Positions 1,085-21,273 of a stretch of 64,000 bases of DNA are shown here, piece by piece. The notes below the pieces were generated by a model, which was not told the DNA's origin, made no database searches, and was given only the letters and a program-made list of their open reading frames with translations. The translations under genes were made by a program, and so were the position numbers. This DNA is from Lentisphaera profundi. Lineage in GTDB: Bacteria > Verrucomicrobiota > Lentisphaeria > Lentisphaerales > Lentisphaeraceae. The stretch's first letter is position 1. Each line of letters opens with the position of its first letter. The DNA lies in contig NZ_CP117812.1 of assembly GCF_028728065.1 (NCBI RefSeq), positions 1,736,001 to 1,800,000 on the forward strand. The letters are read 5' to 3'.

Positions 1085-1226
1085 AACTGTTTCTTTCATA
1101 TACCCTGAGATTTTTAAAATTGGACGTTATGGGAACTGTTTCTTTCATATACCCTGAGATTTTTAAAATTGGACGTTATGGGAACTGTTTCTTTCATATA
1201 CCCTGAGATTTTAAAATTGGACGTTA
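1085..1226. repeat. Three tandem copies of a 49-bp unit
   Basis: Copies begin at 1085, 1134 and 1183 (period 49). The first two are almost identical; the third has one T fewer in its T-run. Each unit holds one complete copy of the ATATAC...TGGACG promoter-like motif, so the array multiplies that motif upstream of the serine hydrolase gene. Confidence 0.95.
1098..1223 (-). promoter_or_regulatory. Class 1 two-block promoter motif, three copies
   Basis: On the gene strand each copy reads ACGTCCAA, then a spacer, then GTATATGAA. The plus-strand cores are 1098-1103/1121-1126, 1147-1152/1170-1175 and 1196-1201/1218-1223, giving gaps of 17, 17 and 16 bases. The same arrangement recurs in front of five other units in this window, always pointing at the gene. 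Distance from the nearest copy to the ATG at 991 is about 107 bases. Calling it a promoter is inference. Confidence 0.6.
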
Positions 1227-1606
1227 TTGTAGTGGTAACTTTGGTACATAGCTATTTGGATATTTTTGATAAGCGCCCAGACTTAGCTTGCTCCACTGTA
1301 TTGGCCCACCCATTTCTACATAAATATAATTGTTCCTATTTTGCTTTTTTCCCTATTAATCTGGCAAGGATATAGATTGAATAAATGATCTAAGTAAATG
1401 GTTTAATTGGATGGGTCCGATACGCATATTTTATGCCGGGCTAAAGTCCTAGAGGCAGGAAAAGGGGTCGAAATTGATCTAGGGCTCACTTGTGAGCCCG
1501 CTAGAATGTAGCGTGCTCCATCAGGGGCATGACTATGAGGAGATCATTCTTACTTTAAAGATTTTAGATCTTCGAACTTAAGGTGATTTTTATTAACAGG
1601 TGAGAG
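1227..1606. other. Gene-free stretch with one perfect hairpin at 1482-1499
   Basis: No credible reading frame was found. A perfect 8-bp stem, GGGCTCAC (1482-1489) and GTGAGCCC (1492-1499) with a 2-base gap, is bracketed by CTAG on both sides. It lies downstream of the minus-strand GH32 gene and could end or protect its transcript, but there is no T-run to make it a standard terminator. Confidence 0.4.
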
Positions 1607-3247
1607 TCATTTCTGTGCACTTGTCTTCCATGAGCTTTTTACTTCGTGAATCTTCATTGAATTGATAAGCGTACTCCCTCCCGAAAAAGAGATCGATCTA
1701 TTGTCAAGATCATGAAGCTCAGAATGGGTTAACACTGTAATGCCATCATTAAGAAAAATTTCAAAGGAGCCGCGATCAACAAGGATACGCAATTTTACTG
1801 TTCCTTTGTTATTTAACGCGTCATTCATGACATACTGATCATACTTGAAACGGTGGTTTTTCCGATCTTTCTTCTCTTCCACACTCTTAGCGTCCCAAGT
1901 AGATTTTTTGCTTAAATTGCTTTTACTTATAAAGTGAATTGTATTTTTAGTAGCATTAAAACTGAGCTTACTTCCACGTATATTAAGTTCTAAGTCCTTG
2001 TCTTTCCCTGGGGTAAATTCGATACTCATATCCAAACACTCTTTATCAATGTTTTTCAGCTCCTCATTTGCAACACTAATACTGCAGCCCCTAGGCAGGC
2101 GCCATTGTTTGCCGTAGAGCTTTTCTATCTCTTTTACAGGCCAACGATAAAGGCGAATCCCCTCAGGTGTACGGCGAATCTGCATTATAGCTGGGAAACT
2201 CAACTGTTCGGTAAAGGGCATTTTTTTGCGCCAGAAATCACTTTTTTTCAACCAGCCGACGATAATTCTTCGCCCATCAGGACTATTATTAAATGTCTGT
2301 GCAGCATTCCAATGACCCAACTTGTGATTCTTTAGCGCCTGTTCACTTTTAAATTTTTTACCATCGAATGAGCCTATTTCATAATCAAAACTACCGTCAT
2401 AGATGAGCCATTTCTTTTGTGGATTATTAGGAAGATTTCCATCTGCGTCAAGTACGGGTAATTCGAATAAATCAAAGCATTCATGAGCCCAGGGCCTGAC
2501 AATATCACTTTCGAATTTCCACTTTTGTAAATCATCGGAACTAAAAATGCGCACTTTACCTCCACTGCTTTCACCTAACCAAAGTAATGTCACCCACTTC
2601 TTACTTCCTTCATGCCAAAATAATTTTGGATCGCGTTCAGTTCCTTTAGGGTCAACATTCCTGCCCTGAAATGGTATTACTGGAGCACCATCATTTAGCA
2701 GTTTAAATGTTCGGCCACGATCAGTGCTATACGCCAGTCCTTGATAGTATTTTGTCTCTTTTGGGGGCGTGAGGATTCCAAACCCCTTGCGCGCATCAAC
2801 TGCATACGAATACATAAGTACCAGGGTTTTTGTATTTCCTATTTGCTTACCAAGGGAGTTATTATGATCAACTACTCCGGTACCGGAAAATACATAGCCC
2901 TTACCATACGGAGTTATAGCATGCGCCAGTTGTTTCCAATGTACGAGGTCCGTGCTCACTGCGTGTCCCCAGGTCATATTCCCCCACCCTGTCCCAAGTG
3001 GATTATGCTGAAAAAACAGGTGGTATTCGCCATCGTAGTACATCAGTCCGTTCGGGTCATTGATCCAGTTCTTAATTGAGGTAAAATGGAATGCCGGGCG
3101 ATACGCCTGCTCATAGCCGATCCCTTTATAAGTATCAAAAGTTCGGAAGGGGTTCTTTTCTTCCGCCATAGCTTTATTAAAAGCCATACTACTTAACAGA
3201 CTTATAATAAATACGCTGGCGAGTAATTTTAATTTTTTCAATTTCAT
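1607..3247 (-). CDS. Glycoside hydrolase family 32 (fructanase / levanase type)
   Basis: Exported GH32 enzyme, expected to hydrolyse beta-fructosyl bonds in inulin, levan or sucrose-type glycans. It shows the three family signatures: WINDPNG near residue 64 (nucleophile Asp), a GTERDPK block (transition-state Asp) and HECFDLFEL (acid/base Glu). The C-terminal part, with an RGSFEIFLNDG segment, is the usual beta-sandwich. The frame stays open to 3397, but I start at ATG 3247: a signal peptide follows (MKLKKLKLLA onward, ending near KAMA) and AGGAT lies just upstream, while the extra 50 residues are only another frame of the duplicated esterase fragment. It is followed by a hairpin and preceded by the esterase remnant and a second GH32 gene. 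Length after the signal, about 520 residues, fits the family. Confidence 0.93.
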   Translation of the reverse strand: MKLKKLKLLASVFIISLLSSMAFNKAMAEEKNPFRTFDTYKGIGYEQAYRPAFHFTSIKNWINDPNGLMYYDGEYHLFFQHNPLGTGWGNMTWGHAVSTDLVHWKQLAHAITPYGKGYVFSGTGVVDHNNSLGKQIGNTKTLVLMYSYAVDARKGFGILTPPKETKYYQGLAYSTDRGRTFKLLNDGAPVIPFQGRNVDPKGTERDPKLFWHEGSKKWVTLLWLGESSGGKVRIFSSDDLQKWKFESDIVRPWAHECFDLFELPVLDADGNLPNNPQKKWLIYDGSFDYEIGSFDGKKFKSEQALKNHKLGHWNAAQTFNNSPDGRRIIVGWLKKSDFWRKKMPFTEQLSFPAIMQIRRTPEGIRLYRWPVKEIEKLYGKQWRLPRGCSISVANEELKNIDKECLDMSIEFTPGKDKDLELNIRGSKLSFNATKNTIHFISKSNLSKKSTWDAKSVEEKKDRKNHRFKYDQYVMNDALNNKGTVKLRILVDRGSFEIFLNDGITVLTHSELHDLDNRSISFSGGSTLINSMKIHEVKSSWKTSAQK

Positions 3248-3272
3248 TATATCTATCCTAGCCATTATCAGT

Positions 3273-3515
3273 TCAAAATGGAGACGTTGATAAACCGTCT
3301 TTGCTATAAAAGTGGGCTTCACTCGGATTAGAGCCATAGGCGTAACGTACGGCGAACGGATTAGAGCCATAGGCGTAACGTACGGCGAACCGAGCACTGA
3401 CCTTATCTGAACTCACTACGACACTTTTTCCATCAGAACTCAATACAGCCTTCGCCCAATGCCATTTTTTATCATTTCTAGCAATGGCAAAACTCTTGAG
3501 TTCACCACTAATCAT
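3273..3515 (-). pseudogene. C-terminal fragment of a sialate O-acetylesterase-like gene
   Basis: An 80-codon frame whose residues match only the C-terminal end of the SASA-type esterase at 18319-19892: both share LKSFAIA/LEGFAIA, WHWAKA/WYWANA, VVVSSDKV/VIVSSDKV and AVRYAY. The catalytic part is absent and no ribosome site precedes the first ATG. A 33-bp tandem duplication (3324-3389) repeats FAVRYAYGSNP inside it. It therefore looks like debris left between two GH32 genes by recombination rather than a working gene. Confidence 0.75.
3324..3389. repeat. Exact 33-bp tandem duplication
   Basis: Two identical 33-base copies, 3324-3356 and 3357-3389, inside the esterase fragment. The length is a multiple of three, so the frame is kept and eleven residues are repeated. 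The lack of divergence suggests a recent slip. Confidence 0.95.
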
Positions 3516-3545
3516 TTTGAGCCGTTTATTTTATTATTCATCATA

Positions 3546-5069
3546 TTATTTTCTTTTTTTCCATATCGAGCTTAAGTCGTGAATGCTAAGTTTATTGATC
3601 ATTAGGTCGTCAGCTCCGTCGATATGGATACGCGAATTTTCGGGCGCACAATTTAAGGTAGCGACAGCAGCGCCATTATTAACAAAAATCTCAAAAGATG
3701 TGCGATCAAAGAGGACGCGGAATTTGACTTTGCCGTTTTTGTTTTTTGCGGCAATTAAAGTGCTCTCGGCTATGGCACCGACATTGTTTTTGATTCTGAT
3801 TTTGCCATCTGACTGAGTATAACGAACATCGATGCCGCGGACATTAAACGAAACTTTATCGTGGCTCCCGGGAGTAAACTCGATGCTCAGGTCCATTAAG
3901 TCCGGTGTGAGGCTACCAAGGTGATCTTTATCATTAGCCGTATCAAGAGTAATGTTATTCCATGTTTTGGTGTCGATGTAAAGCTTTTCAATTTCCTTGA
4001 TCGGGTTCCTTAATAAGCGAATTCCACTCGGTGTAGTGTGTAGAGTCAGTTCGACCGGGAAAGACATTTGTTGGGAGAAGGGCAAACCTTTGTGAGAACC
4101 AAAAGGTTCTTTACGGTGTTGGTTTTGCATAAAACCAAGTTGAACGACACGTCCATCGGGGCCATTATCAAAAGTTTGCCAAGCGTAGCCCACATTGCCA
4201 CGAGGTTTTGACGCATCAAAGCCCTGCATTCTCTCACCCTCTTCTAAGGTCCATATTCCTTTTTTAAGATTACCGACGCCATACTTGCCGCCAGCATTTG
4301 TTATGACCCACTTCATTTTTGATTTGTCCCCATCAAGTGGGAGCTGAAAGAGATCTGGACATTCTCCGCCAATGCCATCTATTTTTCCTATACGCTTCCA
4401 ATTCATAAGGTCGGACGACTCAAAGACCGCATTGACTCCCGCAGTCAAAAGCATGATCCATTTCTTCGTTTCTGGATCAAAAACAACCTTGGGGTCACGT
4501 TCGCCCGTAGAAGACCCCTGGTTTGGAACTAGGTTTCCCATGAGGGTAAAGGTGCGTCCTTTATCTGTACTGTAGGCGCCATCTTGGTGGAATGCTTTTT
4601 GGGTATGAGTAAAGAAGGCGACGATGGTTTTGATATCGCCTTTTTGCTTGCCTAGAGTGTTATTATGGTCAATAATCGAAGTGCCCGACCAAATCTGGCC
4701 CTTGCTCGTACAATGCCCTTTATGCGGTACAATCGCATGTTCCAATTGTTGCCAGTGAATTAAGTCAGTACTGATCGCGTGGCCCCAGTTTTTTTGCCCC
4801 TTGTGCTGAAAATACATATGCCATTCACCGTCATAGTAAATTAAGCCATTGGGGTCATTGATCCCCCCTTCACGAGAGGTGAAGTGGAATTGTGGTCGAT
4901 TTTTTTGGTCGTAAGGGGCGGTGTAAGTATGGAAGTTGAATTCAGCCTTATCGAACAAGGGATCGGGCGTTACTTGCTTATCTTCTGCTTTTGTAGAGAA
5001 GCTTAAACAATGGCACATGGAAATAAGAAAAAGAAAAATAGACTTTGAGTTTTTGTTGCTTCGGTACAT
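3546..5069 (-). CDS. Glycoside hydrolase family 32 (fructanase type)
   Basis: Exported GH32 enzyme of 507 residues with a signal peptide over the first 28 (basic start, FLFLISMCHCLSF core). Family signatures are GGINDPNG near residue 72 (nucleophile Asp), TGERDPK, and GGECPDLFQL with the acid/base Glu. The residues just before NDPNG are GGI, whereas the two sister enzymes here have WI or WL; this aromatic is usually kept, so substrate preference may differ. A C6 run at 4863-4868 codes the GG and is in frame. A class 1 promoter motif ends 42 bases before the start codon, so the gene probably has its own promoter even though a sulfatase gene lies just upstream in the same direction. Confidence 0.93.
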   Translation of the reverse strand: MYRSNKNSKSIFLFLISMCHCLSFSTKAEDKQVTPDPLFDKAEFNFHTYTAPYDQKNRPQFHFTSREGGINDPNGLIYYDGEWHMYFQHKGQKNWGHAISTDLIHWQQLEHAIVPHKGHCTSKGQIWSGTSIIDHNNTLGKQKGDIKTIVAFFTHTQKAFHQDGAYSTDKGRTFTLMGNLVPNQGSSTGERDPKVVFDPETKKWIMLLTAGVNAVFESSDLMNWKRIGKIDGIGGECPDLFQLPLDGDKSKMKWVITNAGGKYGVGNLKKGIWTLEEGERMQGFDASKPRGNVGYAWQTFDNGPDGRVVQLGFMQNQHRKEPFGSHKGLPFSQQMSFPVELTLHTTPSGIRLLRNPIKEIEKLYIDTKTWNNITLDTANDKDHLGSLTPDLMDLSIEFTPGSHDKVSFNVRGIDVRYTQSDGKIRIKNNVGAIAESTLIAAKNKNGKVKFRVLFDRTSFEIFVNNGAAVATLNCAPENSRIHIDGADDLMINKLSIHDLSSIWKKRK

Positions 5070-5110
5070 TTGAGTTAACCTATTTAATTGATTTTGATTT
5101 CATTTACTCC

Positions 5111-5139
5111 ATATACAGCTAAAATCTGTGGTTTGGATG
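5111..5139 (-). promoter_or_regulatory. Class 1 two-block promoter motif
   Basis: Plus-strand cores ATATAC 5111-5116 and TGGATG 5134-5139 with 17 bases between; on the gene strand ACATCCAA then GTATATGGAG. The -10-like block lies 42 bases before the ATG of the GH32 gene at 5069. Confidence 0.65.
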
Positions 5140-5180
5140 TGAGCGGGTGAGTTTTAAGAAAACTAGATTGAAATAAATAA

Positions 5181-7180: not shown

Positions 7181-8461
7181 TCAGGGTATTACTAAAGAGC
7201 TTGAAACTCCGCTTTTAGAAAGAGAGAATTTCTTTTTGACTTTTTTACCTTTTATAGTTGCCGTGACTTCATAATCTCCGAGAAAACCGCGAATTTTGAG
7301 TTTTCCATCGGAGTCCGTTGTACCAGTTACATTGGTCCACCATTCATTGAGCACGAGGTTTTTGTAGACTTCACCAGCTGGGAGTAATTCTCCTTTGGGC
7401 GTTATCAATCCCTTTTGTTTTTGCCACATAAACCCGTCGGTGAAGCCCCATAAAGTAATGCCCTTAATGTTTGGATGGCTGAAGAAAGTAGTTAGGTATT
7501 CGCCGAATTTACGACCATGCTCTTGACGGTCTTCACCACCAAGATCAAACTCTGTTATGCGAATGGGGAGATCCAGTTCGCTATACCAGTCAAGGTATGT
7601 ATACATGACTTCAGGTGAAGGGCTATCTTCATTCAAATGCCCTTCAATGCCAATGCCGTCTATAAGATTTTGCTCCTTCATGGTTTTCATCATATTAAAA
7701 ATATTTTTACGAAATCTGCTATTTTTGGTGCTACAGATCATGCCATTGTGATTGTAGTAGATTTGGGTATCAGGCGATTTTTCTTTGGAAATTTTATGCC
7801 ATTGCGCAAGTGAATCCATTCCACCCATAGAATCAATCCAGTCCATGTGCCCGTACATTTCGTTGACCAGATCCCAGTCGCTATACCAGCCGTTCATGCG
7901 GCTTGCTGTTTCTTTTATATGATCAGATATCGCTTTGGGTGCATCGACTTTACTCAGTGCTTTTATCTCTTTAGGAGTATTGCTCCAGCGCGGATAGATG
8001 GTGGTATGGCCCCGCACTTGAAAGCCTTCACTTTTATAAAATTCATTCGCTTTTTTCTGTTGCGCTTTAAAGTCTTCATCCCAGAAGTCGTTCCAGAAAA
8101 TGGTTTGAGTGACTGCATTGAAACCAAAATTTTTAATGTTGTGACGGTAGATCGAGGCAAATTTTGTAGAAGCTAAGTAATTTTTTGAATTAACTACTGT
8201 ACCAAATGGGAAAGCATGTTTTATCATTTTTATTTGTACATCAATCCCCTGCAGCAATTGACCATCGCTATCTTTTATGGAAATGACGATATCTGCTTTG
8301 CGGTATTTCTCGATGCGCTTATTTGCTTCTACCTTCCATTGATTTACTTTGCCACTATTGGAACCGGATATTAGAGGGGAAAACGTTTCACTGGCTATTA
8401 CATTGCTGATCGATACGAATATACATAAGCACATAACAAAAGTAGTGAAATTTTTATTCAT
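7181..8461 (-). CDS. Glycoside hydrolase family 10 (endo-beta-1,4-xylanase type)
   Basis: Exported GH10-like enzyme of 426 residues. After a signal peptide (residues 1-24, ending VIAS) there is a short beta-rich segment (about 40-90), then the GH10 barrel. The acid/base Glu is E201 in DWDLVNEM (family WDVVNE) and the nucleophile is E304 in RITEFDLG (family TELD). The C-terminus (about 370-426) is a small beta domain with TTDSDGKLKIRGFLGDYEV, resembling add-ons found in marine GH10 proteins. The gene is divergent from the GH32 gene at 9017, and both have a class 1 motif facing them. Xylan is the usual substrate; here a mixed or decorated glycan is possible. Confidence 0.9.
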   Translation of the reverse strand: MNKNFTTFVMCLCIFVSISNVIASETFSPLISGSNSGKVNQWKVEANKRIEKYRKADIVISIKDSDGQLLQGIDVQIKMIKHAFPFGTVVNSKNYLASTKFASIYRHNIKNFGFNAVTQTIFWNDFWDEDFKAQQKKANEFYKSEGFQVRGHTTIYPRWSNTPKEIKALSKVDAPKAISDHIKETASRMNGWYSDWDLVNEMYGHMDWIDSMGGMDSLAQWHKISKEKSPDTQIYYNHNGMICSTKNSRFRKNIFNMMKTMKEQNLIDGIGIEGHLNEDSPSPEVMYTYLDWYSELDLPIRITEFDLGGEDRQEHGRKFGEYLTTFFSHPNIKGITLWGFTDGFMWQKQKGLITPKGELLPAGEVYKNLVLNEWWTNVTGTTDSDGKLKIRGFLGDYEVTATIKGKKVKKKFSLSKSGVSSSLVIP

Positions 8462-8569
8462 GAAGTATTTACCTTATATACACATTAATTTTATTTTGTT
8501 TCTACACGCAGACCCTCAGACAAAACCTGCTGTGATAGCACTTAGCTTGCTAAGAAAATAACCGACTCC

Positions 8570-8598
8570 ATATACAAGTTTTTTTTTTGTATTGGATG
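8570..8598 (-). promoter_or_regulatory. Class 1 two-block promoter motif
   Basis: Plus-strand cores ATATAC 8570-8575 and TGGATG 8593-8598 with exactly 17 bases between, including a run of ten T. It faces the GH10 gene, 109 bases before its start codon. Confidence 0.65.
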
Positions 8599-8959: not shown

Positions 8960-8988
8960 CATCCAATTGCTGTTAAAACTGGGTATAT
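8960..8988 (+). promoter_or_regulatory. Class 1 two-block promoter motif
   Basis: CATCCA 8960-8965 and GTATAT 8983-8988, 17 bases between, read in the direction of the GH32 gene. The right block ends 28 bases before the ATG at 9017. This copy fixes the orientation of the motif, since its gene lies on the plus strand. Confidence 0.7.
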
Positions 8989-9016: not shown

Positions 9017-10599
9017 ATGATGACACCTAAAAAATTACTCAGTTTTATCGGCCTTGGGATTTGTACCTTGTGCCCCCCGTAGTGAATGCACAAGCTGACC
9101 CACTTTTTAACCCTAAGCATCTTAACTTTGAAAGCTACAAAGATATTGGCTATAATCAAAAATATCGTCCACAATTTCATTTCACTTCACGTAAAAACTG
9201 GCTCAATGACCCCAATGGTATGATCTACTATTCTGGCGAATATCACATGTTTTTTCAGCACCACGCACTCAAAAATGCTAATGGTACAAAATCATGGGGT
9301 CATGCAGTAAGTAGCGATATGATACACTGGACACAACTCGATCACGCCATCGTACCCTATAAAATCCCCAATGAACTCATTAGCGCAGAATTTGCCAAAA
9401 AATGGGATGGTGAAGTGGCTATTTGGTCGGGAACCACAGTGATTGACCACAAGAATGTCCTTGGTAAACAAGTAGGCAACACAAAAACTATGGTGGCCTA
9501 CTTTACCGCTACGGCCCGTCCAGAATTCTTTCAGGCAGCCGCTTACAGCACCGATAAGGGACGCACATTCAAATTGCTCAAGGATGGTGGTATCATTCTT
9601 CCTAATCAAGGTTTACTCAAGGGAGAACGTGATCCCAAAGTTTTTTGGCATGAAGCAAGCCAGAAGTATGTCATGCTCATTTGGATGAAGGCGGGTGAGT
9701 GGGGCAATAAAGACAAGCTCTCGGGGGTGCGTTTTTTCACTTCAGAAAACCTACTCGATTGGAAGGCCACTAGTTCTTTAGATCGCAAATGGTTTGCGGA
9801 ATGTATGGACATAGTAGAGATCCCTGTAGATGGCGATATCAATAATAAAAAATGGGTTTTGTATGACGCCAGTTTCGATTACGAAATCGGCGATTTTGAC
9901 GGTGAAAAATTCAAGTCTGATAAGGTGACATTAAAAGGTGATTACGGTTTCCATTATTACGCTGCACAAACCTTCAACAATAGTCCCGATGGACGTAGTA
10001 TTATGATTGGATGGCTCAATGATCGCAAGCACTCACCTTTTGTAGAAACAAACATGCCCTTCGATCAACAGATGTCGATTCCTACCAACATGACTCTTCG
10101 AACAAGCCCCAAGGGTATTCGCCTCTTTCGTTGGCCTGTAAAAGAAATAGAAAATCTTTACATAAAAACTAAGCTTTTTAATTCTTTAAATCTTTCAAGT
10201 GCTAACAAAGTACTAAATGGGCTAGAAGCTGAGCTCATTGACTTTAGTATTGAATTGGAGCCCACGAAAGATTTAGAATTTAATTTCCGTGGTATCAAGG
10301 TGAAGTATGATTTTAAAGAACAGACACTTCAACCAACAAAAATCCTCAATAAACATCACCAAAATCACAAGCTACCTGCCCCTTTAGTTAATGGAAAACT
10401 TAGGCTCCGCGTGCTCATTGACCTTGCTTCAATAGAGATTTTTGTGAATGAGGGTGAATTTGTCGGTACTTATCTGGGACTAACTGAAACAAATAATAAA
10501 TCCGTTAGCCTCAATGGTGAGACACAGACAAAAGTGAATGCAATTTCTTTCCATCAACTCAAATCGATCTGGAGGGAAAAAGAAACTTCAGGACAATGA
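9017..10599 (+). CDS. Glycoside hydrolase family 32 with a one-base frameshift in the signal peptide
   Basis: GH32 fructanase-type enzyme with all family signatures: WLNDPNG, GERDPKVFWHEA and FAECMDIVEIPV (acid/base Glu). The natural start is ATG 9017 (AGGAAA upstream, then MTPKKLLSF leading a signal peptide), but after CTLCPP this frame stops at a TAG. The rest of the protein, from VVNAQADPLF, lies in another frame. Adding one C to the C6 run at 9073-9078 joins the two into a signal peptide ending NAQA followed by the mature enzyme. From the sequence as given, only a late alternative start (such as TTG 9061 or GTG 9082) could express it, without a signal peptide. Either a sequencing error, a decayed gene or a slippage switch would explain this. 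A class 1 promoter motif lies just upstream. Confidence 0.88.
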
Positions 10600-11030: not shown

Positions 11031-12347
11031 TTAAACAGCCTTGAATATATTGTGAAGTTCATTATTGCTATCGCCAAATTGCTGAGCGTCAATACCAAAG
11101 TGTTTTATTGTACTCAGCCATAGGTTGCCAAGCGGAGTGACATTCTCTTTGAAACTGTAGTGTTTACCTTGTTTCATCCCTATCCCTCCACCCCCAGCCA
11201 TTATCATAGGGATGTTTTTGACCACATGATGAACTCTTATGCCAGTTCCAAAAAATATAAGCGTATTATCTAGCAAGCTTGAGCCATCAATTTCTTTAGT
11301 ATTCTTTAGTTGCCTAATGAGATATGCTAATAATTCCGCCAATTTTTTATCGCGATCAATCTGACATTGCAAATCTTGACTATTTTTTGCCCAATGACTC
11401 ATGGCGTGAGTATTTTGTTGATGGCCCATTTGCTGCAATAAACCAATTGATGACATTCTATAGCTAATGACACGGGTTAAATCAGTTCGAAAAATTTCAG
11501 TTATCAGATCAAAACATGTTTTGATCTTCTCTTCTTCATTTAGTGAGCCCGAAGGGATTTGAAAATTCGTTTTGGGATAGGGTTTATCTGCCCAAGCCAT
11601 ATCTTTTTGAATTCTTTTTTCAATACTTCTCAAACTATCTGTAAACTGTGAAAGTCTCTCTTTATCCTCTTTTGAAATAACCTTGGCCAATGATTTGGTC
11701 CCTCCATTCGAGAGGACTAATAAACTTCTATGCTTACTAAGCTGCTTTCTTCTTTCACTCACAGTGAGCTCTGGGTCGCCAAATGATCTTCTATATATAT
11801 CACCTAAAGTATTCAAGCCATTTAAAAACTCTCCACTTTCATTACAAGACATCGAGGCACCCCTTCCCCAACCATCATAATTACCTGTTCGTCCATTAAT
11901 CTGCATTGAACTTATGCGGGTGTATTTACCTACTTCTTTGGCGATCACCTGATCCACCGATACAGTATTAGTAAAAGGTCTCAAAGGATTTGAATCTGGA
12001 TTAGCACAGGTCAAAAATGTATCGCAACCAGCGTGAGGCCACCTAGCATGAATAGGTGATAAATTACTTATAAGTGAGACATCATTTTTATACTGAGCTA
12101 ATGCCTGCAAACTTGAACTTAACTCGAGTTTTTTAACTTTTTCTTGACTATTACAATGCCATTTCTGTGAGACATTATTTGGAAACCATCCCTGATCATA
12201 ATGCCCATAACCATAGCCAATAAAGATGACTCTTTTAGGTGGTTTAAGAGATTTAGCATAGGCGCTACTTTCAAACATAGGAAGTAGCGCACCTAAGCCC
12301 GCAGCTTTTATTAAACTTCTTCTGTTAATGCTTGATGAATGACTCAT
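11031..12347 (-). CDS. DUF1552 protein, Tat-exported
   Basis: A DUF1552 family protein of 438 residues; the family belongs to the alkaline-phosphatase-like fold seen in sulfatase relatives but has no proven activity. It starts with a twin-arginine-type leader (INRRSLIKAAGLGALLP, residues 8-24), so it is expected to be exported folded. Family-typical blocks are visible: SVDQVIAKEVG, FRTDLTRVISY, LDNTLIFFGTG and IPMIMAGGGG. It follows the cytochrome-type gene by 3 bases on the same strand, an arrangement repeated twice more in this window. The pair probably acts as one periplasmic unit on an unknown substrate. Confidence 0.88.
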   Translation of the reverse strand: MSHSSSINRRSLIKAAGLGALLPMFESSAYAKSLKPPKRVIFIGYGYGHYDQGWFPNNVSQKWHCNSQEKVKKLELSSSLQALAQYKNDVSLISNLSPIHARWPHAGCDTFLTCANPDSNPLRPFTNTVSVDQVIAKEVGKYTRISSMQINGRTGNYDGWGRGASMSCNESGEFLNGLNTLGDIYRRSFGDPELTVSERRKQLSKHRSLLVLSNGGTKSLAKVISKEDKERLSQFTDSLRSIEKRIQKDMAWADKPYPKTNFQIPSGSLNEEEKIKTCFDLITEIFRTDLTRVISYRMSSIGLLQQMGHQQNTHAMSHWAKNSQDLQCQIDRDKKLAELLAYLIRQLKNTKEIDGSSLLDNTLIFFGTGIRVHHVVKNIPMIMAGGGGIGMKQGKHYSFKENVTPLGNLWLSTIKHFGIDAQQFGDSNNELHNIFKAV

Positions 12348-12350: not shown

Positions 12351-15239
12351 TCATGATCCTCTAAAAGTTTTAGATGCCACTATAGACTTGATAATATTGC
12401 GAATTTTAAAGCCTGAAGATTTATTCGCATTATAAATCGTATCAATTTCACCTTGGTCGACAATGCTGATAGGTCGGTGAATCGCATAGCTCATTAATGC
12501 TTTTATAAAACCTTTGACAAATTGTTCTTCCCGGCTCACAAGATACTTTTTTAGACCTTTCACACCATCGAGTTCAAGCCCTGAAGGAAGCTTACTTTTG
12601 ACATTGATTTTCTCTCCTTGCCAAGCACCATAATGATCAAAACCCTCAAGTGCAAAACCCAGTGGATCAAAGCTACGGTGACAAGAGTTGCATTGAGCTT
12701 GCTTTGTATGAAATAACATAAGTTTCCTACTCTCGGATAGGTTTAGTTTTTTCAAAGCAAACCTTTCTTCAATCGTTTTTTTTCTAGAGGCAGATAAATC
12801 TGGTACATTAGGTGGTGCAGGTGCAGGTGGGTTGAAAAGTAAATTCCTCATAATATAAACTCCACGCTCTACAGGTGATGTTCTATTCCCTCGTGAAGTC
12901 ATCATCAGAAATGATGCATGGTTTGGAATACCTCCCCGTGGACTAGATTTCACTAAAGCTCGAGCGGAAAAGCCTTTTTTATTTGAAATTGGTAAATCAT
13001 AGTATTTTGCCAGAGTATTATTTACGTAGTTGTAGTCCGGGTTCAGTAAATCTGTTATTGGACGGTTATTTCTTATAATAAATCTCATCGCTTCCGTTGA
13101 TTCACGTAGCATATAAAATTTCTTTCGTGGCCACTTTATGAGATTCGTTCTTTGTGCGTGAATCGTAGGGGTCAAAGCTATAAAGCGGGAGAGTTCTAAC
13201 CACTGAAAAACAAAGGAATCAATAAAAGGCAAGATTTTTTCTGAGTCCAGTATTCTGTCACATTCTTTAAAGACGGCTCTCTTACTGAGACTCTTATTTG
13301 CGACCACCATTTTTTGAAGTTGTAAATCAGGTTGAGAACTTAGCAAAAAGTAAGAAAGCTTATTTACAAAGCTCAATGCCGTTAAGTTTTTATTGTTTTT
13401 ATTAAGTTCGGGAACGATATAGATGAATTCTGGAGAAGAGAGTATCACTGCCAGCACATCGACAAGTGCATCCTGAGGATCTGCCTCTAACTTAGATTGG
13501 CTGAGTAAATGGTCTTTTATTTGCTCCAGTTGAGCGGAACTTATATTTCGACCTCGGTAAGCTTTAAAAGCAAAATTTTCAACTATTTTAACGGCCTTTG
13601 CCATATCCCATTCACTATACTGACTCAATAGTTCTATTTCTGCTTGAGCTAGATATTTTGATTTTAGTGGACCTTCAAGTTCAATCCAATCTATCCATAT
13701 TTCCGCATCGCTATCAATTCTTAATTGACGGCCACTACTCTGCTCCCCAAAATCCCAATGAAAGGATAAATCCTCAGGACTTCTTGATGTGCCTGTTACT
13801 TCTTGATAATAGTTTTCATAAGGTTGAAATTCTGGATTAATTAATTGTTTATGAGATGCGGTACTTATAAATGATTGTTGATCTGGCTTAGTATGGATGG
13901 TTCCACAACGAATTTTAAGTCGGTATCGACCTTCTTTAATTTTATCAAAATTGTAAATATTCTTGCCTAACAAGGTCATAATAGGAGTGCTTTCAGAATA
14001 AATCGCTCCTGTTTTAAAAAGTGGATTATTGATATTCTGCTTGGCAAACTCAAGCTCATTTCCTAGCCTTTTTATGAGGTTCTTTAAATTTCCCCGTCGC
14101 TGAGTAACCGTCTCCAACTCTAACTTTTCGGTGTTCTTAATTATTAAATCAGGCCATAGTTTGATCCTCTTTTGAAAATCTTTAATCTTGTTAGTTTCTG
14201 ATTCATACTTGATTTTAATGACCTGACTATTTGTTTCGCTTAGCAATGCTTTTTCCAAATGAGCTTTGGCAACATTAAAGGATGCTTGCCAATGAACTTC
14301 ACTAAACAGCTGATCTTGAGCTATTGTATCGAATCGACTGATTTCTGGTGAATCGGGAATATGATCTAGACTTGTATTGACACCTAAAAGGTCACGATAA
14401 GTTAGTTTCAATTCTCTTTTATTTAAAAATCGTATGGGCGGATTAAGGCCTCTATTTTGAGTATAATCTTTTGCTTTTCTAATCGTTTGTGTCAGTTCAT
14501 CTATAAAGTTGGTCAACTCTTCATGTGGTATATCCGGCTCATCTTCTGGTGGCATTTCGCTTAAATTAACGGTGTCCAAAATATCTTGCAACAATTGAAT
14601 ACTATGAGCTTTATTCAGTACATCAGGAAGTTTATCAAAGCGTTGGTCACCTTTTTGTTTTATTTCTCCATGACAGTCCTGGCAACGTTTTTCAATAAAG
14701 TGCTTTATTGAACTTGAGAGCTTTACTGTTGACTGGTCTTTTACTTGTATACTTGATACTTCTGATGAACTTATCAGATCAACCTCTTCTATTCTTGAGG
14801 GCTCTGATGAACTTATGAGATCAATCTCTTCTATTCTTAAGGGCTCCAATTGAATATCTACTTCAGCTTTCACTCCTTGTTCTTCATCAAAAACAGTTTT
14901 CTCTAGAGAAATCACTTCTAAGGCTTTACGCTCTAAAGGCTTTTTTTCTTTTAATATTAACCAAAGACTTACAGCTGCTAAAATAAATGTTAATAAAATT
15001 GAGTGTATGGCTACATTCTTTTTTTGTTTATTTTTTCTGATTCGCTTACTTCGAGTTTTCGAAACTTTGAAACTACTTTTCTTAGTCTTTTTTTGACTTA
15101 GAACAGCCGTTTGATTTTTATATAATACCGGTTGTTTCGTATCACATTGATCACAACGAACGTGAACTCCTACTATTTCTTTAGGAGCTTCAAGTTCAAT
15201 GCCACAACCGGCACAGTTAAATCGTATTCTATCATCCAT
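12351..15239 (-). CDS. DUF1587/1592/1588-type cytochrome protein with N-terminal zinc ribbon and membrane anchor
   Basis: A 962-residue planctomycete-type cytochrome protein. The N-terminus is a zinc ribbon (Cys 9, 12, 29, 32) instead of the usual signal peptide, followed by a Lys/Arg-rich segment and one membrane helix (about 76-96). A linker with the repeat RIEEIDLISSSE follows (about 135-160), then a cytochrome c motif CQDCH (186-190). The DUF1587, DUF1595, DUF1592, DUF1588 and DUF1585 regions follow; the DUF1588 part carries CNSCH and DPLGFALEGFDHYG. The ribbon should lie in the cytoplasm and the cytochrome outside. It is the first gene of a two-gene unit with the DUF1552 gene, behind a class 1 motif. 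The two sister proteins in this window have plain signal peptides, so the ribbon-plus-anchor start is the odd feature. Confidence 0.88.
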   Translation of the reverse strand: MDDRIRFNCAGCGIELEAPKEIVGVHVRCDQCDTKQPVLYKNQTAVLSQKKTKKSSFKVSKTRSKRIRKNKQKKNVAIHSILLTFILAAVSLWLILKEKKPLERKALEVISLEKTVFDEEQGVKAEVDIQLEPLRIEEIDLISSSEPSRIEEVDLISSSEVSSIQVKDQSTVKLSSSIKHFIEKRCQDCHGEIKQKGDQRFDKLPDVLNKAHSIQLLQDILDTVNLSEMPPEDEPDIPHEELTNFIDELTQTIRKAKDYTQNRGLNPPIRFLNKRELKLTYRDLLGVNTSLDHIPDSPEISRFDTIAQDQLFSEVHWQASFNVAKAHLEKALLSETNSQVIKIKYESETNKIKDFQKRIKLWPDLIIKNTEKLELETVTQRRGNLKNLIKRLGNELEFAKQNINNPLFKTGAIYSESTPIMTLLGKNIYNFDKIKEGRYRLKIRCGTIHTKPDQQSFISTASHKQLINPEFQPYENYYQEVTGTSRSPEDLSFHWDFGEQSSGRQLRIDSDAEIWIDWIELEGPLKSKYLAQAEIELLSQYSEWDMAKAVKIVENFAFKAYRGRNISSAQLEQIKDHLLSQSKLEADPQDALVDVLAVILSSPEFIYIVPELNKNNKNLTALSFVNKLSYFLLSSQPDLQLQKMVVANKSLSKRAVFKECDRILDSEKILPFIDSFVFQWLELSRFIALTPTIHAQRTNLIKWPRKKFYMLRESTEAMRFIIRNNRPITDLLNPDYNYVNNTLAKYYDLPISNKKGFSARALVKSSPRGGIPNHASFLMMTSRGNRTSPVERGVYIMRNLLFNPPAPAPPNVPDLSASRKKTIEERFALKKLNLSESRKLMLFHTKQAQCNSCHRSFDPLGFALEGFDHYGAWQGEKINVKSKLPSGLELDGVKGLKKYLVSREEQFVKGFIKALMSYAIHRPISIVDQGEIDTIYNANKSSGFKIRNIIKSIVASKTFRGS

Positions 15240-15377: not shown

Positions 15378-15406
15378 ATATACCGGGATATACGTACTTT
15401 TGGATG
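15378..15406 (-). promoter_or_regulatory. Class 1 two-block promoter motif
   Basis: Plus-strand cores ATATAC 15378-15383 and TGGATG 15401-15406, 17 bases apart. It faces the zinc-ribbon cytochrome gene, 139 bases before its ATG. Confidence 0.65.
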
Positions 15407-15515
15407 TATCACATATTTATTTAATTAAAAAATTTGTAGCAAGCACTTTTGATTATTAAAATGTAAAGCTACCTCCTTTACTCCATACAGTCTTAAGTAT
15501 CTCCCAGACAAGTCA

Positions 15516-15998
15516 TTAGAAATTTATATAAAACTTAGCCCGATTTAATTTACTGCTGTGAGCATCAGCAAAAAATAATTTAGTTTTCGACTCTTCATGC
15601 CTGATCTCAAGGGCTTCTAACTCTGGATCAAAAAAACAGGCAGATCTTTAGATTCACAAAGCACCACTGTTTTCGCAACTTTTGATAAATATTCAATTCG
15701 GATACTTGTGACTTCCTCTGTTGCTGATAGTCGATAAGTTTGAAGGTGAGTGTTGAACACATAGTTCCTGTAATGCGAGAGCTCATCTTCTGATTCGGCA
15801 CTTTCTGAACAGATAAAAACAGCGGGATTTTTTAGATATCGTTTATCAAACTTGACTTAATATTTTCATATTATGTGAACCACCCTCGTTGGTAATAATT
15901 CCAAGCTCTATATCCCGTTCTTCCCAAATCGTGAATGGTAGTCCTCTGATAAAATTTAATGACGATTAAAAAAACCTTGATAAAATCAAGTTATCCAT
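15516..15998 (-). pseudogene. Decayed gene of unknown family
   Basis: Protein-like sequence continues over about 480 bases on the complement strand but needs at least three frame changes. The pieces read, in order: from ATG 15998 MDNLILSRFF; LPFTIWEERDIELGIITNEGG; KFDKRYLKNPAVFICSESAE through CESKDLPVF; and FFDPELEALEIRHEESKTK ending in TAA at 15516. Each break is at a short homopolymer (for example the A-run near 15630). I cannot name the family. It sits between the cytochrome gene and the esterase-lactonase fusion and may be the C-terminal half of a lost enzyme or regulator. Confidence 0.5.
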
Positions 15999-16089
15999 AG
16001 GAAAAACATGTTTATGCTTGTGTATCGTCATCTTTTTACATTTATACTCAATCCCTAGTAGGTTTCATTGATTTAGTGATAGTTTAACA

Positions 16090-18309
16090 TCATCGGGAAC
16101 GGAAGCTTAATGATACTGGAGATGGCACATTAATATACTCACTAGACGCTGTTAAACATCCAGTTTTTAGATCGATTTTAAAGAGTGAAATATTATTCGA
16201 CTGAATATTACAAGATAGCAGGTACTTTCCATCTGGGGAAATAATGAAGCTTACGGGTGTTTTTCCTCCACTGGAAACGGTTTCAATAAATTTTAACATC
16301 CCGTTATTTTTATCTCTCTTAAAGAGGCTGATGCTATCAGGTCCACGATTCGTACAATACAGAAAGTCTCCACTTGGGTGGATACGTATTTCTGCAGAAT
16401 GATTATTTCCTTTAAAATTTTTCGCTAGGCAAGAAATATGCTGAATCTCTTGAAGACTTCCGTCTTTACGCTCATACTTAAAGACTGTTACGGCACCTCC
16501 CATTTGATTTAAAAGATATAAAAACTTACCTTCAAATCCAAAAACCAGATGCCTGGGACCATTAAAGTTCTTTGAAACTATCTCACCATCATAAATCATT
16601 GAGCCGTCATTTTTATTGAATTTCACTCGGCAGATTCTCCCTCCTCCTATATCAGCTACAAAAAGGTATTTATTGTCAGGAGACGGTATAACACAATGAG
16701 GTGCAAAGCCTTTTTGGGGAGTTTTGATTTCCAGGTGCTGAACAAGCTTATCCAAAGAACCATCTTCTTTGAGTGAAAATGATGAAATTGAGTTACCATG
16801 AATATTTGCGGTAAAGGCAAATCTTGAGCTTTTATCTAGTGCCATATAACAAGGATCTTTTGGCAAATCTCGAATTTCTCCTGTTTTTTCAGTTTCTAGG
16901 AAGGATTTAAGAACGCCACCCGCCTTAGTATTGCCCGCAGTATATAAAAGACCACTAACTGAGGTCTTGACGAGTACCGTACCCGGTTTTTCAAAAAGAG
17001 GTGTCGCTTTACTAAAATTGCCATTTTCTTTATTAAAACTAGCTGAATAAACTCCTTCAGAGCCCGTGCCTATGACGACTTGAATAGCCTTAACCTGTCC
17101 GGACTTTATTTCATTTTGGTAATCGTTTTGAAGAGCTATGTGAGCTAGGCGCAGCCCAATATCTCGCTTATTTTGTGGGGCTTTAGGATTTGCTGTTTGA
17201 AGGTCTGCACTTATTGCCATAGCGGTATTTTTAATTGATAAACACTTTTCAATGGCTTTCTGGACTTCAGTCTTTAGATCCTTTGGCTCAGAGTTAACTA
17301 ATGGTTCCACAAAGTAAAAGGGCAGTTCCCCCTCGTCCCAAAGCTTACGCCAGCTAACTATAAGTGCTTTTTGATGATTAAATAATTCCTTGGGTTTCCT
17401 AACATTTCCTTGATCCCAGATTACACCACGTATAGAGAATGGAATCAATGGGTGAATCATACCATTGAACATTTTAGTGGGTACAATATTGGTGATCCAT
17501 AGCTCAGAAGGTATTTCTGGACGGTCTATAGGAGTTTGATTTTTGGCCAGTGCTTTCCTAGCTTGAGGTAGCCATAGCTTCATATCTTTGAGGTATTTTT
17601 GCCAGCTTTTCTTGCCAAGTTCGCTTGAGGGCCTGCCATCGTATATTTGTTTAATTCCCCACTTGAGCTCAGGACTATCTCGATAAGCTTCAGCTGGAAT
17701 CCAAGAAGTCATTGGCGTACCGGCCTGGCTTGCCTGGATTATGCCAATAGGCACGTCTATTTCTTGATTAAGTTTTTTTCCAAAAAAATACGCCAGCCCA
17801 GAAAATTCTTTGATATGATCTGAATCGGCGGCCTTCCACTTCACTTCCACATTTTTATTGGGTAGAGGTGATTGTTGTTTAGTGACAGAGGCCAATCTAA
17901 GCAATGAATTATCCGCATTCTTGATTTCATTCGTGCCCTTTAGTGATTTGCGTAATGGATAATCCATACTCGCCGTTCCTACACAGAGCCAAACCTCACC
18001 TATGAGTACATTTTGTATCCTCAAGTGATTGACTTTCAAAACTTGCGCTTTGGAATTGGCTCTTAAGGCTTTAAGCTTTACGCTCCAACATCCGTATTCA
18101 TCCGCAGTAGTGACGACTTCTTGAGTCCCAAAACTAAGTTTAATTTTTTCATTGGCTAAGGCCGTGCCCCAAATAGGTATTTCTTTATTCCTTTGGAGAA
18201 CCATATTATTTGAAAAAATATCCGGCAACTTAACTTCTGCATTGGTCGAAAATATAAATAGTGTTAGAAAGAAAGTAATTATTTTCATCATGTTTATTTT
18301 TTTAGTCAT
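16090..18309 (-). CDS. Fusion of a catalytically dead SASA-type esterase with a lactonase beta-propeller
   Basis: A 739-residue exported protein (signal peptide to about residue 24). Residues 25-400 match the sialate O-acetylesterase-like protein encoded next door, but the catalytic motifs are altered. GQSNM has become GTASM (111-115, nucleophile Ser to Ala113), WYQGES has become WDQGNV (298-303), and the HPQNK block has become APQNK (His to Ala377). Residues about 405-735 form a 6-phosphogluconolactonase-like seven-bladed propeller (PF10282 type): repeats such as PHCVIPSPDNKYLFVADIGG, GPRHLVFGFEGKFLY and IRIHPSGDFLYCTNRGP. AAGGAA lies 6 bases before ATG 18309. Probably a binding protein with a propeller partner domain rather than an esterase. 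The gene ends a unit after the intact-motif but frameshifted esterase. Confidence 0.85.
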   Translation of the reverse strand: MTKKINMMKIITFFLTLFIFSTNAEVKLPDIFSNNMVLQRNKEIPIWGTALANEKIKLSFGTQEVVTTADEYGCWSVKLKALRANSKAQVLKVNHLRIQNVLIGEVWLCVGTASMDYPLRKSLKGTNEIKNADNSLLRLASVTKQQSPLPNKNVEVKWKAADSDHIKEFSGLAYFFGKKLNQEIDVPIGIIQASQAGTPMTSWIPAEAYRDSPELKWGIKQIYDGRPSSELGKKSWQKYLKDMKLWLPQARKALAKNQTPIDRPEIPSELWITNIVPTKMFNGMIHPLIPFSIRGVIWDQGNVRKPKELFNHQKALIVSWRKLWDEGELPFYFVEPLVNSEPKDLKTEVQKAIEKCLSIKNTAMAISADLQTANPKAPQNKRDIGLRLAHIALQNDYQNEIKSGQVKAIQVVIGTGSEGVYSASFNKENGNFSKATPLFEKPGTVLVKTSVSGLLYTAGNTKAGGVLKSFLETEKTGEIRDLPKDPCYMALDKSSRFAFTANIHGNSISSFSLKEDGSLDKLVQHLEIKTPQKGFAPHCVIPSPDNKYLFVADIGGGRICRVKFNKNDGSMIYDGEIVSKNFNGPRHLVFGFEGKFLYLLNQMGGAVTVFKYERKDGSLQEIQHISCLAKNFKGNNHSAEIRIHPSGDFLYCTNRGPDSISLFKRDKNNGMLKFIETVSSGGKTPVSFIISPDGKYLLSCNIQSNNISLFKIDLKTGCLTASSEYINVPSPVSLSFRSR

Positions 18310-18318
18310 AGTTTTTCC

Positions 18319-19892
18319 TTACCAATTATCCGATTTAAAAGGCGCTGCGGGTAGTCCTTCACGGTTATAAAGGTTGCTGTGAATGGGGTTCCATCGGTAA
18401 GCATAGCGAACCGCCATAACTTTTTTGACTTTATCGGAACTGACGATTACTGATTTTCCATCCTCACTGATTCTAGCATTTGCCCAATACCATTTTTGAT
18501 CTTCTCCAGCTATCGCAAAACCTTCAAGACTTGATGAAATTTGCTTTGTCGTTTCTAAACCTTTTTTCTCGCCGACCATAAGACCACTACCTATATGGCT
18601 AAAATGAACAATCGCTTCAGCTCCGCTATTATGGAGCTTTTGGAAGAGAGGTCCACTATAGACAAGTTCCTTTCTTCCATATTCTTTGGCAAGTGCCCAC
18701 AATGAGAGACGCTTGCCCACATCCTGTTTATTTTGAGGGTGAATATTAACCGGATTGCCAATATCGTAAGTGACTGCAAGTCCTGTGTTAGGAAGTTCTA
18801 AGGAACGCTTTTGAGCTTCACGAATTTTTGCGTAACCATCCCCCCTTCCGCTTTTTCATTATACTTATGAAGATTAGCTAATTGCACTGTGTAAAACGGA
18901 AATGCTCCTTGCCCCCAAAGTTCACGCCAACTCTCGATCAAGGCTTTTTTCTTAAAGAAGTAATAATCACCCTGGCCCCAACTTGACTCGCCCTGATACC
19001 ATATAACTCCACGAATGCCATAAGGAATAATTGGGTTTATCATGGAATTGAATATTTTAGTCATACCGTGGTGTGACACCGGCATCCTACTATCTGGTCG
19101 GTCCGGGATATTAAGTGGGAGGCTTCCCTGAGAAACACGTTTTTCCGCCCCTGGAAGCCAAATTTCCATTTTATCTAAATAGTCATTCCATTGCTTTTTG
19201 TTTTCCTCGTTAACTGGCAGACTCTTATCAAGTTCGATTTTTTCCTTCTCTAATTCTGTAACTATGTTAAAACCAAGCTCTGGAATCCAAGGCTCAATTC
19301 CAGTTCCGCCCCAGCTTGCATCGATAATAGCTATGGGGATTTTTAGATTTTCATAAAGAGATCGTGCAAAAAAATAACCAACCGCGGTATAATCCTTGGC
19401 TGTATCCGGCGAACAGACACTCCATTCACCTTTAACATCAGTACGTGGAAGGTTGGCCGCAGTTCTTGTAAGGTTTAACTGTCTAATAGCGGGGTATTTA
19501 GCCGCTGCTATTTCTTCTTTTGAATTAAAGGCAGCCCCCAGACGCCACTGCATATTGGACTGACCGGAACATATCCAGACTTCACCCACTAAAACATCTT
19601 TAATACTATGATTAGCAATGGTCAATGTCTGACCTTTTAGATTGGCTTCCATGGGCTTAAGTTTAAGCATCCATTTGCCATTTTCATTAGTTTTGGCACT
19701 TATACTTTGATTCCCAAAATTTACATTTATCACTTCACCAGGACTAGCCCAACCCCATATAGGAACAGAAATATTTCTTTGGAGAACCATATGGTCATTA
19801 AAGAAAGCTGGGATTTTAACTTCTGCTTGGAGTGATGCAGTCATAAACACCAGCAAGAGTGATAATAGATATGTTTTACGTTTTGTCTGCAT
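18319..19892 (-). pseudogene. Sialate O-acetylesterase-like (SASA) gene with one frameshift
   Basis: Exported carbohydrate acetylesterase of the sialate O-acetylesterase family, broken in the sequence as given. Part one starts at ATG 19892 with a signal peptide and holds GQSNM (110-114, nucleophile Ser112) and WYQGES. It leaves frame after KAEGG at a G6 run (plus-strand C6, 18840-18845) and stops at 18798. Part two resumes in another frame with DGYAKIREAQ, holds the catalytic DIGNPVNIHPQNK block with Asp and His, and ends at 18319. One more G restores a continuous protein of about 524 residues. All catalytic residues are kept, so the break is recent, a sequencing error or a slippage switch. 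It lies 4 bases from the GH32 remnant and 9 from the esterase-lactonase gene. Confidence 0.85.
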
Positions 19893-19896
19893 TTTT

Positions 19897-20181
19897 TTAT
19901 TCTCCGCTTTTTTTCAAAATTGATTTCATCGGATAAACTTTGCACTTATTTATGAGGACTTTATCTGTCCCAGAAACTTCTGCACTAAAAGTGATTTTGT
20001 TTAAGTGACTAACAGAAAGATTTTTTCTTTCAGGTAATTTAAAGGCAGCTCCCTCTTGCTGCCATTTGCTAAAACGACTCTCTTCAAAGTCTGCAATGAG
20101 TATGTCGGCTTCTTCTTGAGCCAAAGCATTGCTATGGCTAAAACAGCTCACTACACCAAGTGCCGCAAAGATCTTAAACAT
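19897..20181 (-). pseudogene. GH32 remnant with a large internal deletion
   Basis: A 94-codon frame from ATG 20181 with a good signal peptide (FKIFAALGVVSC onward, ending NALAQ), then DILIADFEESRFSKWQQEGAA, an N-terminal block found in some exported GH32 proteins. It then jumps to VLINKCKVYPMKSI, which resembles the extreme C-terminus of the same enzymes (KVNSL..YELKSIW in the sisters). The whole catalytic domain is missing. I infer an in-frame internal deletion of a GH32 gene. The product could still be secreted as a small beta protein, but no function is proposed. Confidence 0.55.
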
Positions 20182-20357
20182 ATTAGAAACTTTCTCGACT
20201 AAGGATTTCCAATAGCACAATCCTTAACTTTAACACCATTGTGAAGCTGTCCCATTTTACGCCTATTTCTTCTAAATTGATTTGAATTTGTGTACTATCG
20301 AACATTGAATTGTCGCGTTAACGCAGTTGACCACGTGGATCTCAGATGGAAACATAT

Positions 20358-21203
20358 TTATTTATTATGATCAAACCAGGTACCGCCTGCCCGTGAACCT
20401 GGAACTATTCTTTCCACCAAAGTCCTGCCATTCTTCACTTCCACGTGACCATCAGACATGGCCATATTGGCCTTTCCTCCTCCATGAGCATTAAAATATT
20501 CATAGTTCGAATATGAGTTTTTATAAGCATTATAATAATCATATCGAGCAGAATGATTGTGAAACAAACCGCCTAGTAGATTGCTGGCGGCCCCTTTATT
20601 ACCGGACTCATCATAATTCCACAATTCTGAAAAGAGTAGTGTTTGACTTGGCATTGTAACAGTGGAAAGCTGCACACCAACACCACCATTTTCAGGATAC
20701 ATCCCCCCAATAAGCCCGGGGTAAAATCCATTCCACAAACCCTCGTAATGCTCCGATGCTGCGTAGCTTTTCGGATACAAATCTGTCGTTATATCTGTTT
20801 CATCATAATTACTTTCAAACAAACCTAAAGAAGGGTCTGATGGACAATTGAATATCCTGGTGTGTGATTCAGAAGTATTACTCCTTAAGACATTGCCGTT
20901 CGGTCCAGTCCAATCAAGATTCAAATAGGTATAAATACTATCTTCCCATGAGATCTTGCCGAGATGATTCTGATTTTGAAAAAACCCATCATTGTCCAAG
21001 GTAAACATGGTATTGGCAAACAACAATTGCCTCTGATTGTTCGCACAGACTGCCATCTTGCTTGTTTTACGTGCTTTTGAGAGGCTTGGCAAAAGCAAGC
21101 TTGCCAGTATTGCGATAACACTGATTACGACAAGAAGTTCGATTAAAGTGAAGCGATGAATGCCCTCTTTAGACTCCTTAATTTTCATATTTCGCATAGT
21201 CAT
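20358..21203 (-). CDS. Prepilin-like protein with N-terminal methylation motif (Lentisphaera type)
   Basis: A 281-residue type II secretion pseudopilin-like protein. The leader (18 residues, basic) is followed by the methylation/cleavage motif [20 protein letters not shown] and a long hydrophobic helix. The C-terminus has [17 protein letters not shown], a variant of the H-X9-DG tail with ten instead of nine residues between H and DG. Such proteins are numerous in Lentisphaerae; most are thought to be surface or secreted proteins made through a pilin-like route, of unknown function. AGGAC precedes ATG 21203 by about 8 bases. A class 1 motif ends 42 bases before the start, and the gene is divergent from the first ECF sigma gene. 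Confidence 0.88.
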
Positions 21204-21245
21204 AATTTAAGTCCTGAATAAAGTTTTTAGTTGAGTTACATTTCC

Positions 21246-21273
21246 ATATACAGGCATTTTTTCATATTGGACG
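21246..21273 (-). promoter_or_regulatory. Class 1 two-block promoter motif next to the first ECF gene
   Basis: Plus-strand cores ATATAC 21246-21251 and TGGACG 21268-21273, here 16 bases apart as in one of the copies near 1200. It points at the prepilin gene and lies 80 bases before the ECF sigma gene on the other strand. Confidence 0.65.

Follow-up and report, generated by a model that had tools for sequence, protein, structure and literature searches.

Which protein reads a two-block DNA motif that stands, always in the same orientation, in front of one gene after another in a single region of the Lentisphaera profundi genome? The motif, called M1 here, was found in a stretch of 64,000 nucleotides (the window; contig NZ_CP117812.1 of assembly GCF_028728065.1, positions 1,736,001 to 1,800,000), where it lies upstream of genes for glycoside hydrolases (GH) and other proteins and beside a gene for an extracytoplasmic function (ECF) sigma factor that begins at window position 21354. 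Judged from sequence comparisons, it is very probable that this neighbouring ECF has M1 as its private promoter. We consider it highly likely that its two blocks are the -35 and -10 elements for RNA polymerase carrying ECF 21354, driving a local glycan-use regulon, and that the system is one of about 60 paralogous modules.

The extended consensus of M1 is ACRTCCAA-N15/16-GTATATGR, and the cores CRTCCA and GTATAT are separated by 16 or 17 bases in all eight exact copies of the window, which are spread over 20 kb. A preliminary description of the window had listed eight copies, with their positions, their spacing and a constant orientation toward the gene, and exact matching recovered all of them. 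Every copy is intergenic and aims at a same-strand gene start 41-204 bp downstream, and six transcription units are preceded in this way. The copies are the following:

1098-1126, minus strand: CGTCCA-N17-GTATAT, exact match, third of a tandem triplet, upstream of a serine hydrolase gene starting at 991
1147-1175, minus strand: exact match, second of the tandem triplet
1196-1223, minus strand: exact match (N16), first of the tandem triplet
5111-5139, minus strand: upstream of the GH32 gene 3546-5069 (-), possibly serving the GH32 gene 1607-3397 too
8570-8598, minus strand: upstream of the GH10 gene 7181-8461 (-)
8960-8988, plus strand: upstream of the GH32 gene 9061-10599 (+)
15378-15406, minus strand: upstream of the PSCyt/PSD gene 12351-15239 (-), which is followed by a gene of 438 codons at 11031-12347
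21246-21273, minus strand: N16 copy upstream of the prepilin gene 20358-21203 (-), divergent from the ECF gene

A 49-bp tandem repeat accounts for the three left-most copies (1098-1223), thus the eight copies represent six independent occurrences. About 0.04 copies per 64 kb are expected from the base composition, 3 Mb of sequence simulated with a first-order Markov model contained no copy, and a ninth exact copy is absent from the window.

The genome of the window (G000; 5.46 Mb) consists of two contigs, C1 and C2; its proteins of the PSCyt/DUF1588 type and its numerous sulfatases point to Lentisphaerota. Local motif scans covered 2.04 Mb of it around ECF paralogues and 0.5 Mb of the related genome G002, and selected patterns were searched genome-wide. 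The loose pattern TCCA-N16..20-GTATAT has 36 genome-wide matches, against 24 for a reversed control; clustered matches surround the ECF (C2:1683763-1757271), and the remainder is scattered in numbers like those of the control. The exact form TCCAA..GTATATG has 13 matches, namely the eight of the window, three within 75 kb and two singles elsewhere. The three extra sites are a divergent pair, C2:1683762 (-) and 1683958 (+), and C2:1714757 (+), which precedes another prepilin. In G002, a member of the same genus, the ECF is 95% identical (C1:60102-60686) and eight M1 copies with diverged spacers lie within 25 kb of it; the genes that they precede include GH32, PSCyt and prepilin genes. In G001, also of this genus, the ECF most similar to ECF 21354 is 42% identical, and there is no M1 cluster. 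M1 is restricted to the surroundings of the ECF and occurs together with its orthologues, and this pattern lends support to the proposal, already made in the preliminary description, of a -35/-10 set serving a local ECF and a glycan-use regulon.

The genes behind M1 are these:

1607-3397, minus strand: GH32 glycoside hydrolase, a possible M1 target as second gene
3546-5069, minus strand: GH32 glycoside hydrolase, predicted M1 target
7181-8461, minus strand: GH10 glycoside hydrolase, predicted M1 target
9061-10599, plus strand: GH32 glycoside hydrolase, predicted M1 target
12351-15239, minus strand: zinc-ribbon planctomycete-type cytochrome (PSCyt1/PSD2-5), predicted M1 target
20358-21203, minus strand: prepilin-like protein with a GFxxxE-type N-terminus, predicted M1 target

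The six served units named in the preliminary description were found again, but its count of two GH32 genes has to be amended: three are present, two of them directly behind M1, and the third (1607-3397) lies downstream of GH32 3546-5069 on the same strand, possibly in one operon. Within the first called codons of GH32 1607-3397 there is a 33-bp direct repeat (3324-3390), and the gene probably starts further downstream. At 16090-19892, acetylesterase-like reading frames occur in pieces (18319-18720 and 18798-19892); they adjoin an esterase-lactonase fusion (16090-18309) and may be broken genes.

The proposed reader and its partner are encoded side by side:

21354-21941, plus strand: ECF sigma factor of 195 residues, proposed reader of M1, with N-terminal TRxTLL and an invariant threonine at position 7 (Thr7)
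21938-24052, plus strand: Ser/Thr (Hanks-type) protein kinase, Pkinase domain at residues 51-316 and one hydrophobic segment, putative sensor and activator

The kinase gene overlaps the ECF gene. ECF 21354 matches TIGR02937 (sigma70-ECF superfamily; residues 23-185) and Pfam Sigma70_r2 above the cut-offs, no separate Pfam model matches its sigma4 part, and it has the make-up of a group 4 ECF (sigma2 and sigma4 only, about 200 residues). The NCBIfam model TIGR02989 (Rhodopirellula/Verrucomicrobium family) gives it 47.4 bits, with a cut-off of 124.55. The structure predicted for the kinase was too poor (predicted local distance difference test score 41) and was set aside. Between the kinase gene and position 24697, a 59-bp unit is tandemly repeated (24419-24641; 3.8 copies, 92% matches), and short open reading frames in it repeat SPGIAKHQLG; it is probably an intergenic repeat.

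ECF 21354 has about 60 paralogues in its own genome, and 55-64 matches to it are found in each of G001, G002 and G005. Among 289 genomes sampled from the phylum, 25 have a match at E<=1e-18, and outside the family there are mostly one to ten per genome, at most 11 matches having been scored in each. A kinase gene adjoins 47 of the 60 ECFs, 32 times downstream on the same strand, 11 times tail to tail and 4 times head to head. The last two arrangements place 15 pairs outside one operon, which suggests that the conserved unit is the pair and not the operon. One paralogue (C2:1238094-1238671) is split between two frames and is probably a pseudogene.

Dyads enriched around single ECFs yielded eight more candidate motifs:

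M2, at ECF C1:192633: RTCCAAA-N14/15-CTGTA
M3, at ECF C1:435670: CTGTCCC-N16-ACGAA
M4, at ECF C1:700590: TGTTAAG-N17-CTTCTAT
M5, at ECF C1:1750223: TGTAACA-N15-CGCTT
M6, at ECF C1:1385856: TGTCACA-N15-CGGTAY
M7, at ECF C1:1431095: TGTCACA-N15-CTGTAT
M8, at ECF C2:500597: TGTTACA-N14-GGGTTTA
M9, at ECF C1:154917: TGTCAC-N16-YGGTAA

Genome-wide, all five exact matches of M3 (as CTGTCC..ACGAA) lie at ECF C1:435670, all seven of M4 (TGTTAAG..CTTCTAT) at C1:668921-704749, and all three of M8 (TGTTACA..GGGTTTA) at C2:500597; the ten matches of M6 and M7 together (TGTCACA..CKGTAY) form two clusters, one at ECF C1:1385856 and the other at ECF C1:1431095. An anchored count gave nine modules at p<=1e-5 versus 0.1 expected from random gene sets, with anchors that had been picked after the first motifs were known and a control run with identical anchors. 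These nine modules correspond to eight distinct motifs, because C1:1420160 scored with the M7 cluster of its neighbour. M2 stayed below the threshold of this count, and its support comes from pooling with its G002 orthologue. A local motif of their own is strongly supported for eight ECFs, ECF 21354 included, and less strongly for the M2 ECF and for the second ECF of the window, ECF 30478.

A placement that is random with respect to genes and strands had been named beforehand as the outcome that would speak against promoters, and it was not observed. The nine motifs have 44 sites in this genome; 38 of these are intergenic, with a same-strand gene at most 350 bp downstream, compared with 12 when the sites are flipped and 6.9% of random positions. 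Behind the sites lie genes for glycoside hydrolases, sulfatases and prepilin-like proteins as well as PSCyt operons. Prepilin-like proteins account for 21 of 63 genes behind sites (a few non-local matches included) versus 67 of the 1480 genes of the regions sampled, and our guess is that they take part in glycan use by binding substrate at the surface. Prepilin-like targets recur in most motif-bearing modules, often several in each (window 20358-21203, C1:439688-440898, C2:492629-498476).

Some approaches and candidates were discarded. A free expectation-maximization motif search was overfitted, as real modules were barely apart from random gene sets, and its results were unused; an 'antisense' dyad control was invalid because the reversed dyad is the same dyad. 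The dyad CTCAC..TAAGG at C1:880559 was not counted because it was based on near-identical orthologous flanks, and AACTC..ACTCA at ECF C2:2283405 was recognized as a dispersed repeat rich in GC and no promoter. Within and around the C2:2283405 module, in both species, a GC-rich unit of 20 bp, AACTCAGCGCGTAGCGCGTC, forms long arrays together with its variants (G000 C2:2280658-2297345 and G002 C3:250836-261358), with the appearance of a hairpin repeat of the repetitive extragenic palindromic type.

The motif clusters accompany the orthologous ECF into another genus. M4 matches eight times in G004, each time on contig C8, and three times on contig C257 of G005. Orthologues of ECF C1:700590, searched after the motif, were located at G004 C8:6064 (72% identity), G005 C257:14501 (71%) and G002 C30:53000 (82%), and it is on these orthologue-bearing contigs that the pattern clusters in the three genomes. 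Four more matches in G005 are on two other contigs, C7 and C32, and G001, with no orthologue above 40%, has the pattern once. In the case of CTGTCC..ACGAA, the sole match in G001 lies 3.4 kb from an 88% orthologue, and G002 has matches at its 87% and 61% relatives.

When the motifs are compared, related ECFs have the -35 block in common and differ mainly at -10. For three ECFs that are 63-69% identical (C1:1385856, 1431095 and 1420160) and their 54-57% relative C1:154917, all motifs found have TGTCAC at -35, with a variable -10. TGTnACA is common to C1:1750223 and C2:500597 (42% identity), and TCCAA to ECF 21354 and C1:192633 (50% identity). In both members of the last pair the loop before FRxWL is two residues shorter. 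This loop, together with region 2.4, reads the -10 element in other ECFs, and the few cases at hand suggest that it may do so in the present family.

It could be argued that the two blocks are no promoter but the site of a transcription factor, activator or repressor, for the local regulons of classical regulators give local motifs too. We consider this very unlikely: the blocks form neither an inverted nor a direct repeat, their orientation to the gene is fixed, the spacing of 16-17 bases is that of sigma contacts, and the distance between site and called start is 1-204 bp, with a median of 61. Moreover, from genome to genome the motif clusters go with the ECF orthologue, and the same two-block layout, in other letters, stands beside other ECFs. 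That the M1 copies are remnants of a locally spread repeat or mobile element is hardly credible even with three copies in a 49-bp tandem repeat, since the other copies are alike in the two blocks only, with unrelated spacers and flanks, the blocks were kept between species as the spacers diverged, and every copy faces a gene start.

The identity of the reader is a separate matter, and M1 might serve as promoter for a different sigma factor, or for several ECF paralogues together, in which case the neighbouring ECF would not be its dedicated reader. M1 and M2 are indeed similar (TCCAA..TGTA) and belong to ECFs that are 50% identical, and two ECFs, C1:666884 and C1:700590, lie within one TGTTAAG..CTTCTAT cluster. 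On the other hand, M1 copies surround one ECF only and are gone where its orthologue is gone, and wherever a motif can be detected, it differs from one paralogue to the next, which makes this alternative unlikely.

Several observations weigh against a dedicated ECF 21354 promoter within a family of private, kinase-linked modules. By the methods used, about 50 of the 60 modules are without a convincing motif, small target sets limiting the power, and 13 of the 60 ECFs have no adjoining kinase. The divergent M1 pair C2:1683762/1683958 sits 74 kb from the ECF; its equivalent in G002 is only 6 kb away. G005, of another genus and with a 62% ECF, has only one, altered M1 copy (ACGTCCAA..GGTAGGTG), which precedes a decayed prepilin divergent from the ECF, and there is no exact match of CTGTCC..ACGAA on the contig of its 72% orthologue of ECF C1:435670. 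Crosstalk between M1 and M2 is also possible, because these motifs, whose ECFs are 50% identical, agree in the -35 block and partly in the -10.

The second ECF of the window is a less firmly supported case of the same arrangement:

30478-31077, plus strand: second ECF paralogue, 35% identical to ECF 21354
31064-33169, plus strand: second kinase, overlapping the second ECF
30314-30344, minus strand: candidate motif CTTCAAGAT-N15-GTACCAC, upstream of DUF1552-like and PSCyt-like genes at 26400-30280
40891-40921, minus strand: second copy of the candidate motif, upstream of a gene set at 33395-40856 with three sulfatases

The motif was found by inspecting upstream regions; its copies, though no more than two, share 16 fixed bases and have different spacers. 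They are the only ones in the 2.5 Mb scanned, and both stand before gene sets that flank ECF 30478.

In the mechanism that we propose, each ECF paralogue would read its own promoter before its own local gene cluster, with the -35 common among related ECFs and the -10 differing. ECF 21354 would direct the GH32, GH10 and serine hydrolase genes, the PSCyt operon, the prepilin-like genes and the three sites within 75 kb. The cognate kinase would sense a substrate-linked signal and phosphorylate the ECF, possibly at the invariant N-terminal threonine. Recognition of M1 by the ECF and its control by the kinase are the inferred parts of this scheme. Thr7 is invariant and position 10 is threonine in 91% of the paralogues, therefore both are candidate, unproven phosphosites. 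ECF43 sigma factors lack the acidic motif of region 2.2 and gain the charge through phosphorylation (PMC13147305, PMC8999054). The second acidic position of this region holds D or E in all 58 full-length paralogues (ECF 21354 reads ESDDLRQD), so the switching mechanism of ECF43 is not encountered among them. The wider picture is held tentatively, its chances as a whole being slightly short of even: some 55-64 ECF modules per genome in the family, mostly kinase-linked, would form a nearly orthogonal sigma/promoter set, whose -10 elements diverged for each glycan or sulfated-polysaccharide cluster, perhaps via the loop before FRxWL, and whose activation runs via the invariant threonine near the N-terminus and not via the site used in ECF43.

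If true, dozens of related sigma factors with distinct promoters would occur naturally in one cell, a set exceeding the SigI sets of clostridia. How duplicated sigma factors avoid crosstalk, and how kinase-linked ECFs that retain the acidic 2.2 motif are activated, would become directly testable. These promoter passwords alone could also predict which enzymes act jointly on one polysaccharide in poorly studied bacteria, and the ECF/promoter pairs are a possible source of orthogonal parts for engineering.

Many ECFs, each with a local glycan cluster, are also known from the polysaccharide utilisation loci of Bacteroidota, where they work with membrane anti-sigma factors and SusCD-like transporters; unlike those ECF/anti-sigma pairs, the modules described here have recurring kinases and prepilin-like proteins. 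An ECF with a cognate or adjacent Hanks-type kinase is found in ECF43 (EcfP/PknT of Vibrio, EcfK/PknS of Xanthomonas; PMC8999054, PMC13147305), but ECF43 members lack the acidic DxxD of sigma2.2 and have instead a QTTA/STTA-like motif with an activating phosphothreonine. In the kinase-linked groups ECF59, ECF61, ECF62 and ECF217, with Planctomycetota examples, an ECF likewise stands beside a Ser/Thr kinase and, as in the non-ECF43 groups generally, a DAED-like 2.2 motif is kept (PMC8999054); the likeness was assessed on these two features. The literature examined contains no report of about 55-64 paralogues per genome or of a private promoter per paralogue, and nothing joining ECF sigma, kinase and polysaccharide use in Lentisphaerota was found in the literature searched. 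In working principle the nearest system is SigI/RsgI of cellulolytic clostridia, in which a genome encodes 8-16 sigma factor paralogues and each of them has a polysaccharide regulon and a variant of the promoter to itself (PMC6056542, PMC4711584). However, SigI belongs to another sigma family and is held by the RsgI anti-sigma factor, whereas the present system combines an ECF-type sigma with a kinase, and about 60 ECFs compare with 8-16 SigI. SigI promoters have a common -10 (CGAA) and are discriminated upstream of the -35 A-tract (PMC6056542), while here the -35 is common within clades and the -10 differs. Taken one by one, the ECF, the kinase and the local regulon are familiar elements; what sets the system apart is how many paralogues there are and that promoters are laid out as private ones.

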